A DNA stretch of 64,000 bases. Origin: Akanthomyces muscarius. Its lineage: Eukaryota > Ascomycota > Sordariomycetes > Hypocreales > Cordycipitaceae. The stretch covers positions 992,001 through 1,056,000 of the forward strand of contig NC_079241.1 in NCBI RefSeq assembly GCF_028009165.1, in the 5' to 3' direction. Position numbers and translations under genes: made by a program. Below the pieces are notes generated by a model. That model was not told the DNA's origin and searched no databases. It saw only the letters and a program-made list of their open reading frames with translations. Each line of letters opens with the position of its first letter. Position 1 is the stretch's first letter. Below, one piece after another: positions 1,557 to 61,346 of this stretch.

Positions 1557-4471
1557 ATTAGTCTTATCCTTAAGGCCACTATAGTTAGCCTATCTTATCT
1601 TTCACGTTTATAGGTCCTTTCTTCCTCCTATACTATTATACTTCACTATATCTAACTATATTACTAAGCCTTATTTTACTAAAACTAAATAGCGCTTAAA
1701 ACTAGCCGCTACTATTAAAGAATTTAGAGTTATTATTATACCTTATTCTTTTTACTATTCTAAGAAGCTTTCCTATAAAATAATAGAAGGTGTTTCTTAT
1801 TATAAGGAATATATCTATTAAGGTCGTTCTTATAATAGCTTAGAGGTGCTAGTGTCTTCTTTTAATTAGATTATTTTAGAATCCTAATGTTTATATTATA
1901 AAGAGGAGGAGGCTATTACTCTCTTTTAATGTCTTTAGTAAGAATCTTCTAAGGCACTAGCTAAACTAGAGCGTCTATAAAAATAATATAAGTCTCTTAT
2001 AACTTATAGTTCTATTATAGTTAAGTATAGTCTTTAGTTACTAGATAAACTTAATAAGTCTAAGCGAGCTAAGTTAGAGGCTATAGTAGAGGTATAGTCT
2101 TTTAGCTATATAGATATAGTAGACTAGAACGTTATTTTCTCGGATTTATTATAGATGCCTAAGAAAGAACTTAATAAGTGGAACGTTACTTATTAAACTG
2201 TTAAAGTAGGTCTAAGTAACCTATAAGGTTCTTAATAGGTTCCTAGGTGTTCTTAGAGTTTAGGTATCCTTTCTATTTAATTAGATATTTACATTTTTTA
2301 TAGTTTCCTTATACCTTAAGTATTTATTTAATTTTATATATATTATTATTTTCTATAATAATATTTATAGTAACTATAATATTATCTAGTGCTTTTTTAA
2401 GTAGTAAGATATAGAATATAGGATAGATCTTTATTTTATTAGGTAATAATAGTTTATAGTTAGTATTTAATATTTTTTATTTAATAAGGAATAGTCTAAT
2501 TTTCTTCTAGTTAAGTTTATTACTAGGTCGTTTTATTTTAATATTTTTATATATAAGGTAGACTTTATATCCCTCTTTTAGGATTAGTGCTAGTAATCTC
2601 TTTTTATCTATATAGTGCTTTATATAGTTTTATAAAAATATCTATTCTTATTATAAGTGTTTTTATATATCTATAATTATTATTATATATACTATAGCTA
2701 CTAGTATATTTATATTTTATATTATATATGTTTTAATAATAGGGTTAAATCTATAATTTACTTTAAATAGTGACATTTTTATATTATTAATTTTAGAGCT
2801 ATTATAAGCCTATTATATAAGTAGTAACTATTCTACCTAATTATCTTATTAGTAGTTAATATAGCTTTATAGATATTTTTCTAGTACTTAGTTTAAGATC
2901 TTAGTCTAACTATCTAACTATAAATAGAATACTATAAATAAACTTTACTTAATTTTTATTATTTCTATAAGGCATTTCTAGAAGTTTAATATAAATAATT
3001 TATTATAATCTAATATAAGTTTTATTAGTAATCTATATTAAGTAATAACTATTTTAAAGAATATATATACTAGGTCTTTAATATTACTAGATTCTATATA
3101 AGGAATATAATAGGTATACTTTATAAGTTTATTAATAATAACTAAGATACTATTATAGTATACTCCTATTATAGGTTCTTTAGACTTTAGTAGTTTAATA
3201 ATAAAGTCTATAGTAATAGTTTACTATACTCTTTTAGGTAGTAATATTAGTTATAGTTTACTATAAGGTGTATATTATACTAACTTTACTTTATTATAAA
3301 TATTATATTTTCTAATAATTTTTTATATAATCCTCCTACTCTTAGAGAAGTTATATAATCTTTATAGTTAACTAATTGTTTTTATAATACCTTAGTGTCT
3401 ATATAGTAGGTGTGTATATATTTCTTCTATAAGCTATTTTTATAATATAACTAGGACGTATAGTTAGTTATTATAAAAATAGTTATTTTCTTTCTATATA
3501 AAAAATAGGGTTAATCTCTAAGTATTAGTTAGACAGTCTCCTTAGATTCTTAACTTAATTCTTTATAGCTAGATATTATCTAGTTATACTTACTAAGTTA
3601 TATTAATTTCTTAAGTACTTAGTATAAGGTTCCTATTCTTAGTTTAATATAATAAGGGTATATTATCTACTTATTATTCTATCTTTAAATCCTCTTTTTA
3701 ACTAAGTGTATCTACTTTTCTATTTTTAGATCCTTTATAGTATATAATTTCGAAATTATAATCTATAAGGGTTTTATACTATCTAATCTATTATTTATTT
3801 AGATCTTTTATAGTTATAAAGGAGGTTAGGTTCTTATAGTTAATATAGACCTTAACCTTATAGTTCGCTCCTTTTAGATAATACTTCTATTCCTTAAAGG
3901 CTTTAATAATAGCTATAAGTTCTTTATTATATATATTATAGTTTAGTTCTAGTCTATAAAGTTTTTTTAAAAAGAATATAACTAGGTAAAGTTAGTCTTT
4001 ATTATCTTATTATTTAAGTTATCTATTAAGTATATAGTTAAAGGTATTAGTTTTAACTTTAAAGGGTTTATTAGGATTAGCTATAAGTAGAACTAGCTCG
4101 TTTAGGATTTTCTCTTTTAGCTTCTAAAAGGTATTAGCTTCTTTATCTATCTATTAGAATTTATTATCCTTCTTTATAAGGTTAGTAAGAGGAATTATAA
4201 TTTCTCTAAATTTATAAATAAAGTGTTAATAGAAGTTTATAAATCTAAGGAATCCCCTTATTTCTCTAATATTAGTTAGTATAAGTTAGTTCTAAACATC
4301 TTTAATCTTAAATAGACTTATCCTAATTTATCTTAATATAATTTTATATCTTAGGAATTTAACTTTATATTAATAGAATTTACTTTTAGCTATCTTAATA
4401 AGGAGCTTATTATCTTATAGTGTTTATAGTACTTTATATATATATTTCTTATATTCTTTAAGTGTATTAAA

Positions 4472-4510
4472 AAATATAAGGATATTATTAAGATAGATAA
4501 TAATAAATTT
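4472..4510 (-). pseudogene. Reverse-transcriptase catalytic core remnant
   Basis: Minus-strand reading KFIIIYLNNILIF. Gypsy reverse transcriptases carry YLDDILIFS here; both catalytic Asp codons (GAT) have become AAT by G-to-A change, as RIP would produce. The rest of pol can only be followed in fragments. Confidence 0.75.
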
Positions 4511-6492
4511 ATTAAGCTATTTTTATAAAATATTATTAATTATAGTTTAGAATATTATAAGTGTGTTAGTAAGGCTAAATAGTATTATAAGATACTTAAA
4601 GTGTCCTCTTATAGTTTAAAAGGCGGTTTTCTACTTATAACCCTTAGCTATATAAATTAGATTATAAGCTCCTTTTAGGTTAAGGGTAGTAAACTATTTA
4701 GCTTATCTAAGCTTATCTTATATCTCTATAATAAGTAGTAATAGATATTAGTTCTTAATTATAATCTTATTAAGTTACTAATAGTTAATATATAGTTATA
4801 ACTTTCTATTTTTCTTTAATACCTATAGGATTAGGTATCCTACTAGGGACTCTAATAGTTATATATATCCCTTTTATAATATCTCGTCTAGATACTCCTT
4901 AAGAGCTTTATTTTATATAGGGTTTTAAGGATATATTTTATTAAACGTTAGTTTAGTACTAAGCTAGAGCTTAATCTTATAGTCCTAGTGTAAATACTCT
5001 AATAGTCCTATTTCTAGCTCTCTACTAAATAGCTTACTATACTTTAAGTATTCCTTAAGAATCTCTATTATACTAGCTTTAATCTCTTTAGCGATTATAT
5101 ATATTCCTAAAGGCTTATCTTAATTTAATTAAGGTGCTCTTTATAAGCCACTCTTATTATTATAATTATATCTTAGTAAATCCTATTAGAGTTAGCCTAT
5201 TCTCTAGTTAACTTAGAGATTACTTACTTATAACTAGGGTATCCCTAATATAATATTATATTTTAAGATTACTATAATATCTAAGGTAATATAGTGTTTT
5301 ATACCTTATATATTAATTAAAAGTTATACTACTTTTATATTAACTACTTTTTAGCTAAATTTTACTATATATCCTTTTATAGTTATAAGTTAGTAAGGCT
5401 TATCTTTTATAGTCTAAGGTAATTATAGTTTATTAATAAGATTTAGTGAGATAAAGTTTCCTTATACTCTACTATTAATTATTACCTAGATCTTTCTTCT
5501 TATAATTTTTATAGTAATTATAAGGTATATAGTACTACTAATATTTATAGTATATAAAGACCTATTAGATCTCTATTAAGGAATTAGTCTTAATTATAAT
5601 AATAACTATTATTTCCTAATTCTTATTTAATATCTTCCTCTTATTAGTCTATCTTTTAGAATGTCTTAAAGATAGTTAGTTTTCTTTTATTAGAGCTTTA
5701 GTAATAGTTAGGTTATCTACCCTCTATATTAATTAAGTGTAGGTTAAACACACTTCTTATCCTTATACTATTTCCTCTATCTTTATAGTGTAAGGTTATA
5801 GTATAGATAGTATAGGCGTTTTTATCCTTAATATAGTATATTTAGGTATTAATTTTAAAAGAGATTAATAACTCTCTATATTCCTTAATTATCTAGTATT
5901 AAAGTTCCTTTTTAGTAAAAGGTCCGCTATATATATCACTATTAGGGAACTATTAATATTCGATTTTCTTCTAGAGGTAGCGTCTATAGTTATTAAATAG
6001 GTAAGAGGCCTATAAGATTGTTATATAGTTATAGTATATTATACTTACCTTAAGTGTCTAGGTGTTAACTCTTAGGATTAGTAATTCTCCTATCTTAGCG
6101 TCTATTAGGATAGCTATAAGTATAGTAAGGTCTAAGATGTTAGTTTTTTAGATAAGAACTAGTTTAAGTTATCTGTTTTAATAGTAAGAGCGTCCCTTAA
6201 TTATATGTTATTTAATTAGCTCTAAAGGTGTTATAAGAATATAGTTAAATACTTCCTTTATATCTAGAGTAGTAAGTGTGAGTTTATTATCCTTATTAGG
6301 CACTAGTTAGGTTCTAAATTCCTAATCTTCGTCTAAGTTAGTGTTATCTACTAAATAGTAGTAGCGTTTAGGCTTAGAGATATATTCTTCGCTATTTACT
6401 ATACTAAGGTTTTAAGTAGGTAAGTCTTTATAGTTAGCTATATAGAGTTTTCGTCCTTCTCCTATAGGTTTCTATTATTTCTTTAGGGCATA

Positions 6493-6534
6493 ATACTTAT
6501 TAGTAAAGTGTCTAGTCTTACTATAGTTATAATA
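6493..6534 (-). pseudogene. Gag zinc-knuckle remnant
   Basis: Fourteen minus-strand codons fit C-x2-C-x4-H-x4-C exactly, with all three Cys codons changed to TAT (Tyr): YYNYSKTRHFTNKY. TGT/TGC to TAT is the G-to-A direction seen elsewhere in the element. The position upstream of the RT core fits gag. Confidence 0.65.
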
Positions 6535-7399
6535 AGTTTTACCCTTTTCTTTATTTATAACGTCTAACTCTATTAGGCTTAGGTAAACACTATAGGCTAT
6601 AGATCTGCCTTATTATTATCCTATATTTAGTTAGTATTATTAGGTTTATAGTTTAGTGTTTCCTTACACCTATCCTCCTTTCTTAAAGCGCCTAGTGTAG
6701 TTTTAATTATTAATTTTAATCACTATTTCTATAAATATGTTAAAAGAATCTAGTTAATCTATTTTATATAGGTTATCTTTTATATCTTCTTAGAGTCTAT
6801 TATAGAAGAGTTCTATTTAACTTTTATTATCCTATTTAAGCTTAATAGTAATTTATTAGAACTTATATATAAAGTACTAAGTAGAACTAGTCTATCTTAG
6901 GGTCTTAAGTTTATATATAATAGTTTAGATTTTATCTAGGTCTCTAAATATAATAGTTAGGGCTTCTTTAAAGTTCATATAGTAAGTAAAGATTTAAGTG
7001 GTTTTATCTTTAAGGGTTTTATTATTAAGATAGTCCCTAAGAGTTAGCTCCTACTATTCTATCGCTTTACTAGTAAGAAGGTTTCTAATATAAAGTATCT
7101 AAGTAGTAGGGTTAGAGATAGTAGTGTTAACTTAAAGGTAGGCCTTAGCCTAAGTTAGGAACGTATATATATCTCTTTTAGTACTATTAAATAGCTTAGG
7201 TTTAGGGAACTTAAAGAGTGTAAGGGTTACTAAGTTATTCGCCTATATAGATTAGATCTAAACAGTAAGGGCTTTAATCTGCTATCTTATCTACACTATA
7301 TATTAGGTAGGGTTAGTAGTACTTCCGCTTATAGTAGATATTATAAAGGTTAACTACTTAAAGTTTTAAAGGTAATTTACTAAATAGGATTAATTAAAA

Positions 7400-54335: not shown

Positions 54336-54805
54336 AGTGCTTTGACCCACGAATCTTTACTCTGACCAAAGTTTCGTCGACGGCGATGAAAAGTCCCGTA
54401 ACAGATCTCTGGTTTCTTCTCTTCTTCGGAGCAATAGTCTCTTATTTTCAAGAAGTCTTGAAAGTACGGAGATGCGCCCATGCCCATTTTCCATGCTTTT
54501 TTTCTTTCCTTTTTTTTTTATCGCGCGCTTGTTGAGGCAAGGCTTGTTTAGTCATGCGGCTGTTGACTTTTCGATATGCACTGATTCATTCCCAAGAGAG
54601 ATTTCAAATACGATTCAATGAACTTTGATTCCACTATTACGCAAATGATGGGATCTTGATGCATTTCCCGCTAACAGTCGGCCGAGCTGAAACTTCAGTG
54701 CGCACTCAATGACGCAGCAACGAAGAACTCCATACAACGACTTTGAGCTTCCATATCCTCCAAAATGGTTCATTCGATCGTTTGCGAGAGAAAGTTTCAG
54801 GAAAT
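54336..54805. other. Convergent 3' region between the 14-3-3-like and microexon genes
   Basis: 470 bp. An open minus-strand frame (54615-54878) could be a long terminal exon of the microexon gene, but the acceptor for it is weak. Otherwise nothing seen. Confidence 0.35.
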
Positions 54806-56844
54806 TTATGGCTAGTCCGGCACAGGCTTGCTTTAGAGGATCAAGTAGAGAAGGGATCGTGACGGGTGAAGCACTCACGCACTAAATTGGTAGGGCTGCA
54901 TGAGAAGCTTGCTGAAGATGTGACGGAAGAAAACGCTGAGGCTAGTTATACTTACAATCTTGTTTTGTTGAAATGCTGTTAGTAGTGGGATCTCAACCTG
55001 AGGCAAAAGCGACACTTACACACTAAAAGTTGTCGATTTGTCAATGCACGGCACTCTTGATGAACATGGGTCTGGAACTCGACATACTGCTTGCTGTAAA
55101 ACATGTCAGAACAGAGATCGCAAGTGCTAGCACATTTCACAGAGTTCAAAGCCGCCATTAGTAACTTACACCCTGCAATTTGGCCCCAATTCAGCACTTG
55201 GACATGGTGTCGCGTTCGAGTATGCCTTCTTGAACTCACGGGCTGTTCCAGTCAGTATGCCAAAATTCTCTGGCTGAATAGCGTCCCGAAATAGAGCTAT
55301 ATACTTTCTTAAGTCCTGATATTAGTAATCGGTGCCCAGATGGAGAGGTATGTACGTACTCTCTGTATGTGTGTTTCAGTATATGTTGACAGAAGGCATA
55401 CGACTCAATACTCACGCACTGTTCTTGTCAGCTGAGCGGTCGGCTTACGTAGAGACGAATACGTACAATCTTTTTTTGTCAGCCCTATTGGCAAATTGCA
55501 TCGCGAAGCGCGTGTTTCTTCGCACTCACAGGCTGCGCTTCCGTCAGCTCGAGTCAGTCGTTGTGCCAATCCGCTGAATAACTCACGAACTAAAGTTCGG
55601 TTTTCTCAGCCATGTCATCTGGCCATCAAATGCAAGCTTTCACATACGTCCTGGGATAGAGATCGGTCAGTAAGCATCATTCCCTCGGTTTGCTGCTTTT
55701 TCACTAACTTCCTGTAGTTTGCCATAAGATCCGCAGTCAGTGGTGAAGTGTCGCAAATGTTAGTGGTAGGGGCACCCACGCCCTGTAGACCAGAAAAATT
55801 AGCGCTGAAGACACTGAACTTTTTCACGCAACTTACACACTGATTGAGCTTGGTTAGCCCGTTCGTTTAACTTGCTCGAAATTTGCCGACATACGTTCTA
55901 TTTATATGGTTAGATTCATGGGAAAATCATGATGATATATCTGAAACTCACGGTCTGTGCTCTTGTTAGTGGCAAGATGAGGCTGCCTTCGATAGTAACT
56001 CAAATACTCACGCACTGCGTCTGCCATCAGTCCTGTCGCTTGACTAGTTTGGAGCTGGCTGGCTTTATCAACTTACGCACTAAATTTCGAATAATCAGCT
56101 TTTGCACAAGCATATACAATTCGGAATTGGACAAAGTGACTTACTCGCTGTTAATTGGTCGTTAGAAGTAGACGTCATGCTTCTTGCCGAAAGCACTGCA
56201 CATACAAACTGTTCCGAAACATAGTCAACCACTGTGCACCGATGTTGAGGGGGCACTTACACCCTATCGAGATATTAAGCAGACATTCATTTCTTGTGCC
56301 GTCATTTCATACGTACGACCTGGTAAGATGTTAGCAATATATTCCCAATTTAAACAAGGTAGCTTACTCACAGGCTAAATGGAAGTCAGAGAACTGTAAA
56401 CCCGAAGGGAGTGTGTTTGACTGACGCAATTCCCCTGCGGCAATGAAAAGTGTATTAGTGACAAAAATCGAATGTAATTTTCTCTGCTGTGCCACTCACG
56501 TTCTGCGCGGAAAGCCATTAGTTCACAGTCTTCAGCCCTCGAATAGAAGAGAAGACCATACGCCCTTGAAAAGTTAGAAATTATTAAGCGACGGATTGCA
56601 GGCTGCGACTTACACACTAAGGGGCAGATAATTAGTAGTTGCAACTTGTAGGCCGGTGATAGCTGGGCACTATAAAACCTTCGCTCCCGCTCTGCCCTGT
56701 ACGTAAATATTTCACTATTAATACAAAAGGCGGATACACTGGGCACGGCTGCTGTCTGGTTCATACCCCGAGCTCGGCTCCCTCATGGGGGAAGGCCATA
56801 GCAAGGCTGGCCAGGGCAGTAATCAGGACGTAGAAGCTCTTCAT
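54806..56844 (-). CDS. Secreted Cys-rich peptide encoded by about 32 exons, 27 of them single codons
   Basis: Exon 1 56844-56767 encodes a signal peptide (MKSFYVLITALASLAMA). Then 56696-56679 (18 nt), 56616-56614, 56564-56562, 56502-56500, 56434-56426 (9 nt), and 3-nt exons whose lower coordinates are 56372, 56317, 56261, 56206, 56145, 56077, 56012, 55952, 55895, 55837, 55780, 55709, 55648, 55587, 55530, 55467, 55416, 55360, 55305, 55240, 55170; then 55093-55088 (6 nt), 55022-55020, 54958-54956, 54881-54879, and a proposed terminal 54811-54806 with TAA. Introns are 48-76 nt, nearly all GTRNGT...CTRAY...AG, all phase 0. Cysteine framework C-x4-C-x5-CC-x2-C-x6-C-x6-C-x-C; about 65 residues. Uncertain: exon 2 donor (GTTTTA), exon 18 donor (GTTAGT), exon 25 (two AGs), exon 28, terminal exon. 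Function unknown; it resembles small disulfide-rich effectors or inhibitors. Confidence 0.8.
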
Positions 56845-60211: not shown

Positions 60212-61346
60212 TTGACGAAAAGGAATCTAAGGGATGCTTTCGTAGAAGGCCTGAGCTCGACGAGAAGCGACATGGGCCCCATCTGATTGTGGAAAACTGT
60301 GTATATATAAAAGGTGATATTCTAATCGCCATGTACTTTATTATCATCTAGATGCTGTCCTGCGATACGAAGCTCAGGAAATCCATAGAGGGCTTGCTAA
60401 AGTGAGCTAGACTTTAGGCACGATTAGCTTTGAGGGAAATAGCAAAACTAATTATGAACAAATGTTTCTCCATCTTGGTATGACATTCTATGTCATTTCT
60501 CTGCTGAAAGAATGGGCTGATAAATGCCCTGCAGCGCACAATAAAAGACTCCCCTGAAAAAGTCTATACCGTTTCCGCCTCCGGGCTACCTCTAGAAGTA
60601 TGCGTTAAAACCGCCGTTCTATATACTACTCGTATAGTAAGAATTATATATATAACTCTATACAAGCTAGCCTTAAGTGTTATACTTATCGATAGTTATT
60701 AGAGCTTTTTAAGCTATTATAATTTATTATTAAAAGGTAAAAGTTAAAATATTTTCAATAGATATTTACTTAATAAGTTAAAAAGTTTATATAATTAATA
60801 AATAAAAAGTTTATAAAATAAATTAAAATACTATTTATAAATAAAGTTTAAGAAGTTAGAAATTTTTTATTTTAACCTTTTTATTTTATTATTATTATTA
60901 AATATTATGAATAATAAGTTCTTATTATAGTAAAAGATAAAAAATGCACTTTTAGTATAATCTATTTCAAAAGGCAGATTATACTTAAGGTGCCTAGCCT
61001 TTAGTATATAATTATAATCACAGTAAAGGAGGAGTTCATAACGTCTACTATCAGCGGGTCTACATTCACGTTAGACTGGCTGTAGAAGTAGTAGCATCAC
61101 TTTACACCGTTGAGGACTGCGTACTATCGTCAACACTACGCTGCGTGCAATGAGGATAGTGGGCGAAAACTTATGCGGACGATCCGGCCTCGCCAACCCC
61201 CTTTCATCCCAACGTCGAGCCACGTATAGGATTCCAGCTCTTTTTGGCCTGGACGATGAGATGGCTGAGCTCGAGGATACTCCGACACGGCGCGTCAGTC
61301 CAGCTAGCCACCTGCTCAGGCAGAAGCCAGTATCTCTGATGAACGA
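60212..61346. other. Convergent intergenic region
   Basis: Between the 3' ends of the GMC gene and the C2H2/fungal_trans gene. Contains the AT-rich relic at 60600-61030; a 74-codon frame at 61150-61374 is unsupported. Confidence 0.45.
60600..61030. repeat. AT-rich, probably RIP-degraded transposon relic
   Basis: About 430 bp of very low GC, rich in TA, with sharp edges into normal sequence, like the RIP-mutated element at the window start. Contains a perfect inverted repeat AGTATAATCT (60954-60963 and 60976-60985). CTAGCCTTAAG-like sequence appears near both ends in opposite orientation, a possible eroded terminal repeat. No coding remnant. Confidence 0.55.

Follow-up and report, generated by a model that had tools for sequence, protein, structure and literature searches.

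Predicted arrays of single-codon exons in the genome of Akanthomyces muscarius

The window analyzed here, a 64,000-nucleotide (nt) stretch of the Akanthomyces muscarius genome (contig NC_079241.1, positions 992,001 to 1,056,000 of the forward strand), contains on its minus strand a gene, designated A1, most of whose exons are predicted to be one codon long. The gene model, a single chain of hand-picked exons, runs from 56844 to 54812 and contains 32 exons and 31 introns. Exactly 3 nt was assigned to 27 of the exons, and the remaining five measure 78, 18, 9, 6 and 15 nt. Exon 1 (56767..56844, 78 nt) provides the start codon and a hydrophobic N-terminus, judged by eye to be a signal peptide. It is followed by a possible exon 2 of 18 nt (56679..56696), which may not be an exon and could instead belong to a longer first intron, and then by the array itself (54879..56616), in which short introns separate the 27 single-codon exons, one 9-nt exon and one 6-nt exon. 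The single-codon exons are grouped as runs of 3, 21 and 3. The last coding exon (54812..54826) comprises 15 nt including the stop codon; all of these features lie on the minus strand. Every exon length is a multiple of 3 and every intron is in phase 0, partly by construction because the model was chosen by hand. The introns are 48–76 nt long (mean 58.9 nt, n = 31), a GTRAGT donor is present in 17 of them, and the length of 24 is not a multiple of 3, so that the frame would be shifted if such an intron were kept. Splicing would reduce 2,033 nt of genomic sequence to a predicted coding length of 207 nt, or 189 nt if the doubtful exon 2 is left out. The spliced model is stop-free until its end and encodes 68 residues including the doubtful exon 2, with eight cysteines, C-x4-C-x5-CC-x2-C-x6-C-x6-C-x1-C, after the hydrophobic start.

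The original prediction had described 27 acceptors and donors facing each other across exactly 3 nt, introns of 48–76 nt, exon lengths in multiples of 3, phase 0 throughout, no internal stop and eight cysteines, and the chained model bears out each of these statements. Two details were revised. The gene had been drawn to end at 54806, but its stop codon ends at 54812; and a branch-like word had been claimed for every intron, but CTRAH was detected in only 25 of the 31.

Three further arrays were found in the same genome (36.2 Mb, 12 contigs). Scanning it for cysteine codons flanked by an acceptor and a donor returned 89 matches, seven of them inside A1 and five clustered on contig C11. Since the first 100 matches were listed for each of three pattern searches (211, 127 and 107 matches), the number of arrays is a lower bound, namely at least four. 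A2, on contig C11 (locus L002), comprises 34 exons, with 30 single codons in unbroken succession, and its 33 introns measure 56–82 nt. A3, on contig C3 (L025), was found by a search with other codons and consists of 18 single-codon units spaced at 77–85 nt between two exons encoding ankyrin repeats, with Pfam ankyrin matches on both sides; no second copy of the ankyrin exon 3′ of A3 was found. A4, on contig C6 (L026), was recognized from matches 380 nt apart and has 14 exons, which include an uninterrupted run of 12 single codons. GTRAGT donors are present in 26 of 33 introns in A2, 17 of 19 in A3 and 8 of 13 in A4. Exon lengths in A2 and A4 and all 18 triplets of A3 are multiples of 3, here too partly by construction. 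Neither the 19 further loci with one or two matches (L003–L021) nor a locus with a loose pair (L040) contains an array. Beyond their stop codons, A1 and A2 share two perfectly matching stretches, one of 18 nt and one of 16 nt (54677..54741 on the minus strand of the window; L002:5772-5814, the matches starting at 5772 and 5799), while the surrounding flanks align poorly. These stretches are possibly an element of the 3′ untranslated region or a trace of common descent, and judged by sequence A1 and A2 are probably related. Tandem repeats of other kinds lie near two of the arrays: a 63-nt repeat, glycine-rich by eye, upstream of A2 (L002:1324-1484), and a 99-nt repeat, ankyrin-coding by eye, about 4 kb beyond A3 (L025:9393-9901).

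The spacing of exactly 3 nt was compared with chance in several ways. On the minus strand between 54806 and 56844, the motif YAG-N3-GTRNGT occurs 22 times, against 0 or 1 occurrence for each other gap from 0 to 15 nt. In the remainder of the window the 3-nt motif was counted twice on the minus and three times on the plus strand. Chain length was defined as the number of consecutive acceptor-NNN-donor units under a fixed regular expression, and the longest chains were 18 in A1, 30 in A2, 18 in A3 and 8 in A4. In 300 dinucleotide shuffles of A1 the chain was at most 2, and in shuffles of all four arrays (300 each) never above 3. Control DNA of 226,900 bases, about 60 kb of which is the rest of the window and the remainder of which was mostly chosen for motif matches and is hence no random sample, gave chains of at most 2 at 3-nt spacing and at most 3 at any spacing from 0 to 9. 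At L003–L021, the counts were 26 for the 3-nt spacing and 6–14 for the other spacings between 0 and 12. The claim that A1 lies beyond chance is thereby confirmed, and the DNA pattern is certainly real and recurrent.

If spliced as modeled, the arrays of A1 and A2 would each encode almost all of the mature portion of a small, cysteine-rich and probably secreted protein; we infer that these products function as secreted cysteine-rich peptides. The spliced A2 product contains six cysteines, C-x6-C-x7-CC-x4-C-x7-C, which agree in order and spacing with the C-C-CC-C-C framework of knottins, and the loose knottin pattern fits 1,685 of 200,000 residue shuffles of A2 (0.84%). Its best matches in the PDB were Ep-AMP1 (expectation value, E, 0.08) and two palutoxins (E 0.24 and 1.2), which we take to be plant and spider knottins, respectively. 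Its match to Pfam Toxin_7 (E 0.024, 15.3 bits) is below the cut-off of 27. For A1, three chance-like PDB matches were obtained (best E 0.13), and neither A1 nor A4 matched a Pfam family. The A4 gene is predicted to encode a small protein with a hydrophobic start, probably secreted, in which the array supplies 12 codons of a longer protein. In A3, the array is predicted to insert a loop of 18 residues between two ankyrin repeats.

Do the triplets behave as exons? In the proposed mechanism, the spliceosome would join 12–30 consecutive single-codon exons one by one into a continuous frame. The short introns, mostly with good donors and a branch-like word shortly before the acceptor, would be recognized by intron definition, so that exon length would hardly matter. 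As neighboring splice sites overlap, the introns would have to be removed one after another, and since the codon exons are symmetrical (phase 0), a skipped exon would cost one residue and keep the frame. The predicted splicing of the arrays as single codons is likely, with an estimated probability of roughly 0.8. The rival account is that the arrays are intronic, each being a long intron removed stepwise by recursive splicing or all at once, with the triplets serving as landing sites and absent from the messenger RNA. An acceptor facing a donor does resemble a recursive splice site, but such sites require no 3-nt spacing, and without their arrays A1 and A2 would be reduced to little more than a leader. 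The 87 single-codon exons contain no stop (chance 0.015 for uniform codons), and the triplets of A2 spell a knottin-like framework. Introns retained in the transcript would break the frame in 73 of 96 cases (31, 33, 19 and 13 introns in A1 to A4), as their lengths are not multiples of three. Furthermore, a triplet NAG would place two acceptors in tandem, and NAG is avoided: among NAR codons (Lys, Glu, Gln) it was found in 0 of 9 in A1, A2 and A4 together, compared with 60.6% in a background of 43 stop-to-stop runs of at least 350 codons each (P = 2.3e-4), and exons of at least 9 nt in the same genes have 12 NAG and 6 NAA. Third-position G is found in 9 of 87 triplets compared with 26% in the background (P = 2.4e-4). 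An intronic nature of the arrays is therefore unlikely overall, and it is most at home in A3. There the junction without the array reads as normal ankyrin (YHYDP then TPLSRAA), and NAG accounts for 2 of 3 NAR codons, which brings the combined count to 2 of 12 (P = 0.0025). For these reasons the triplets of A3 are possibly not exons, and the exon reading of A3 is uncertain. Several other observations also weigh against splicing into single codons. Six A1 introns have no CTRAH word, a weak spot of that model; the donor of its exon 2 is weak (GTTTTA); and its last acceptor is ambiguous by 4 nt. No homologous protein was found for A1 or A2 in a large protein set, both queries being short, and the only match of A4 there was P0001, an unspliced reading of A4's own start. 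The genome yielded no intronless paralogue of A4 or A2, the 34-residue A2 query having no positive control and A1 not having been searched. We attach scarcely any weight to chance, a minisatellite or an assembly artefact. Tandem-repeat scoring does report 17 copies of a period-85 repeat for A3 and a repeat of period 70–74 for part of A2, but the introns of A1 and A4 are not repeats of one another, and a minisatellite would not vary one triplet per unit between fixed borders. Moreover, a source tagged lgn also contains the A4 start up to the first array triplet; since no contig of that source exceeds 4,321 bases, it is a separate assembly, although the underlying reads may be the same. Chance and minisatellite readings are rejected on the strength of the motif counts, by chains far longer than those in shuffles and control DNA, by the fixed triplet borders and by the unlike introns.

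A separate question is how single-codon exons would have arisen, and here the introns of A3 are the most informative. Mean pairwise intron identity, compared with that after shuffling of the intron middles, was 0.81 versus 0.54 in A3, 0.62 versus 0.53 in A2, 0.53 versus 0.52 in A4 and 0.52 versus 0.52 in A1. Identities were used for A2, as gap-free distances do not separate it from A1 and A4 (0.25 vs 0.26). The 17 core introns of A3 differ by 0.10 per site, two pairs being identical, whereas the codons differ by 0.65. Entropy inside the triplet is about 1.5 bits, compared with 0.0–0.6 bits at the ten positions flanking it on each side. Intron distance and codon distance are unrelated (Mantel r = 0.03 and −0.04, P = 0.34 and 0.67), and between introns no more than 5.3% apart the codons still differ at 55–61% of positions. 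In A3, introns and codons have separate histories. Because the bases beside the triplets are nearly fixed, the triplets themselves nearly random and the two distances unrelated, the boundaries of the copied unit seem to coincide exactly with the splice sites. This pattern suggests the insertion of intron copies between codons, for example from excised intron RNA. Introns would then have multiplied locally as exact donor-to-acceptor units, trimming the coding stretch to one codon per exon, with A3 a young array, A2 an older one, and A1 and A4 so old that intron likeness has fallen to background. The same splicing could also follow from repeated tandem duplication of a codon together with its intron and subsequent very fast codon change, by selection or targeted mutation. 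This account is a possible one that we take seriously, because it explains the exact 3-nt step and the constant phase, and the former is left unexplained by random insertion. Copying of codons with their introns also better fits the few distinct codons (12 in 30 in A2, 8 in 18 in A3), and A3 contains a duplicated block, comprising two introns and two TAT codons, whose introns are identical between the copies and whose codons were carried along. In addition, the array of A3 would lengthen the ankyrin loop by about 16 residues relative to its usual length. However, the codons would need a rate of change many times that of the adjoining introns, and intron likeness does not predict codon likeness. 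Insertion between codons also has to contend with the fact that, among the best candidates scored in the genome, no copies of the A2 and A3 introns were found outside their own arrays, unlike dispersed introners. A target-site duplication was not apparent: the same codon flanks the intron on both sides in 1 of 24 cases in A1, 2 of 29 in A2, 5 of 17 in A3 and 0 of 11 in A4 (permutation P = 0.64, 0.70, 0.12 and 1.0). Intron folding was no stronger than in shuffled sequences for the 11 inner introns of A4 and for the first 12 such introns in each of the other three arrays. On balance, insertion between codons is somewhat more likely than duplication of codon plus intron. The exact size of the step may reflect the spliceosome itself: loop 1 of the U5 small nuclear RNA holds three exon bases during splicing, and these three bases may set the 3-nt floor. 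The full proposal built on insertion is that introns multiply within one gene by one-codon steps until exon equals codon, with exact spliced-out introns as the copied units and the codons left uncopied, that arrays of different age preserve a record of intron birth, and that skipping of single codons could yield libraries of secreted peptides differing by single residues. We put this forward tentatively, as less likely than not.

What distinguishes these arrays from small-exon systems already described? In the open-access literature searched, at the level of titles and the beginnings of abstracts, no array of one-codon exons was found, in agreement with the earlier statement that such an array is undescribed. 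Schistosome microexon genes (MEGs) encode small secreted proteins, with the signal peptide mostly or entirely in a first long exon and the central coding part mostly in microexons, defined as shorter than 36 bp; in MEGs 26–32, 26 of 33 microexons (79%) are symmetrical (PMC4671649). A1 and A2 resemble them in that the central coding region is mostly composed of microexons below 36 bp, whereas the array of A4 forms only 12 codons, and most microexons in A1–A4 are likewise symmetrical, partly through the construction of the models. Compared with the long 5′ signal-peptide exon of MEGs, the first exons of A1 and A2 measure 78 and 84 nt and are hydrophobic by eye; compared with their long 3′ flanking exon, the coding part of the last exon is 15 nt in A1 and 6 nt in A2. 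As MEGs are described, the arrays are set apart by their 87 exons of exactly one codon, in runs of up to 30, with introns of 48–82 nt. Aphid bicycle genes, putative effectors that evolve rapidly, contain numerous internal exons of unusually small size and, with few exceptions, of the same phase; in a megacycle gene the microexons number more than 100 (PMC9168663). Bicycle exons are almost all in phase 2, unlike those of the arrays, which are all in phase 0 and mostly 3 nt long.

Ultra-short exons have also been reported singly. Human RPS24 contains three consecutive microexons of 3, 18 and 22 bp, whose inclusion or skipping was shown by RNA data (PMC12686416); only one of these is a single codon, and it is alternative, forming neither an array nor the body of the protein. 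Isolated examples include exons of 1 nt in Arabidopsis APC11, 1 nt in Fusarium CYP621A and 3 bp in Drosophila homothorax (PMC12940212, PMC4674806, PMC7392893), and a 20-nt microexon is present in Trichoderma Xlr2, reported in 2024 with the statement that no functional microexon had previously been described in filamentous fungi (PMC11121469). Spliceosomes, that of a filamentous fungus included, can thus handle exons of 1–3 nt, yet in the accounts cited these exons are single and lie in ordinary genes. Near-identical introns are known to multiply in fungi, and in Hypoxylaceae they do so seamlessly, leaving no short duplications at their flanks (PMC8469720, PMC4457414). Such introner-like elements are spread over many genes, whereas among the best candidates scored, copies of the A2 and A3 introns were found only within their own array; the arrays advance in 3-nt steps, and their introns do not fold more strongly than shuffled sequence, whereas terminal inverted repeats would make them do so. 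Nor are the introns stwintrons, since each model intron has its own donor and acceptor without nesting. Runs of up to 30 predicted one-codon exons and intron copies decoupled from codons match no kind found in the searched literature; on a more cautious view, A1 and A2 may be an extreme form of microexon gene.

The surroundings of A1 include MutS-type, FAD (flavin adenine dinucleotide)-binding, diphthamide synthesis, GNAT and GMC oxidoreductase genes as well as a gene encoding a zinc finger together with a fungal transcription factor domain. No Rfam match was obtained in the window, and a 5.8S search gave no match. Short tandem repeats, mostly AT-rich and possibly decayed elements, lie at 2325-7029 and 60763-60823. 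The 12-mer TAGAGAGTAAGT accounted for more than 40 of the 100 matches listed in one pattern search, on many contigs (for example, C3:897368, C8:684624 and positions 1164 and 7443 of the window), and looks like a piece of a dispersed repeat. Elsewhere, another motif match occurs five times at exact 6,299-base steps on contig C1 (7424532-7449728), up to near the contig end, indicating a large tandem repeat; the part of it covered by L039 contained none of three ribosomal DNA words.

Overall, the reading of A1 as an array of one-codon exons is supported and extends to three more arrays in the same genome. Gene finders cope badly with very short exons (PMC12940212). If the predicted splicing is true, the one-codon exon would be a repeated architecture rather than a rarity, and gene finders may have overlooked whole peptide families. 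It would also pose the problem of how the splicing machinery copes, dozens of times per transcript, with acceptors and donors that overlap across 3 nt. The range from A3, with its closely alike introns, to A1 and A4, with unrelated ones, is a possible age series, with which the long-standing question of how introns are born could be tested directly.
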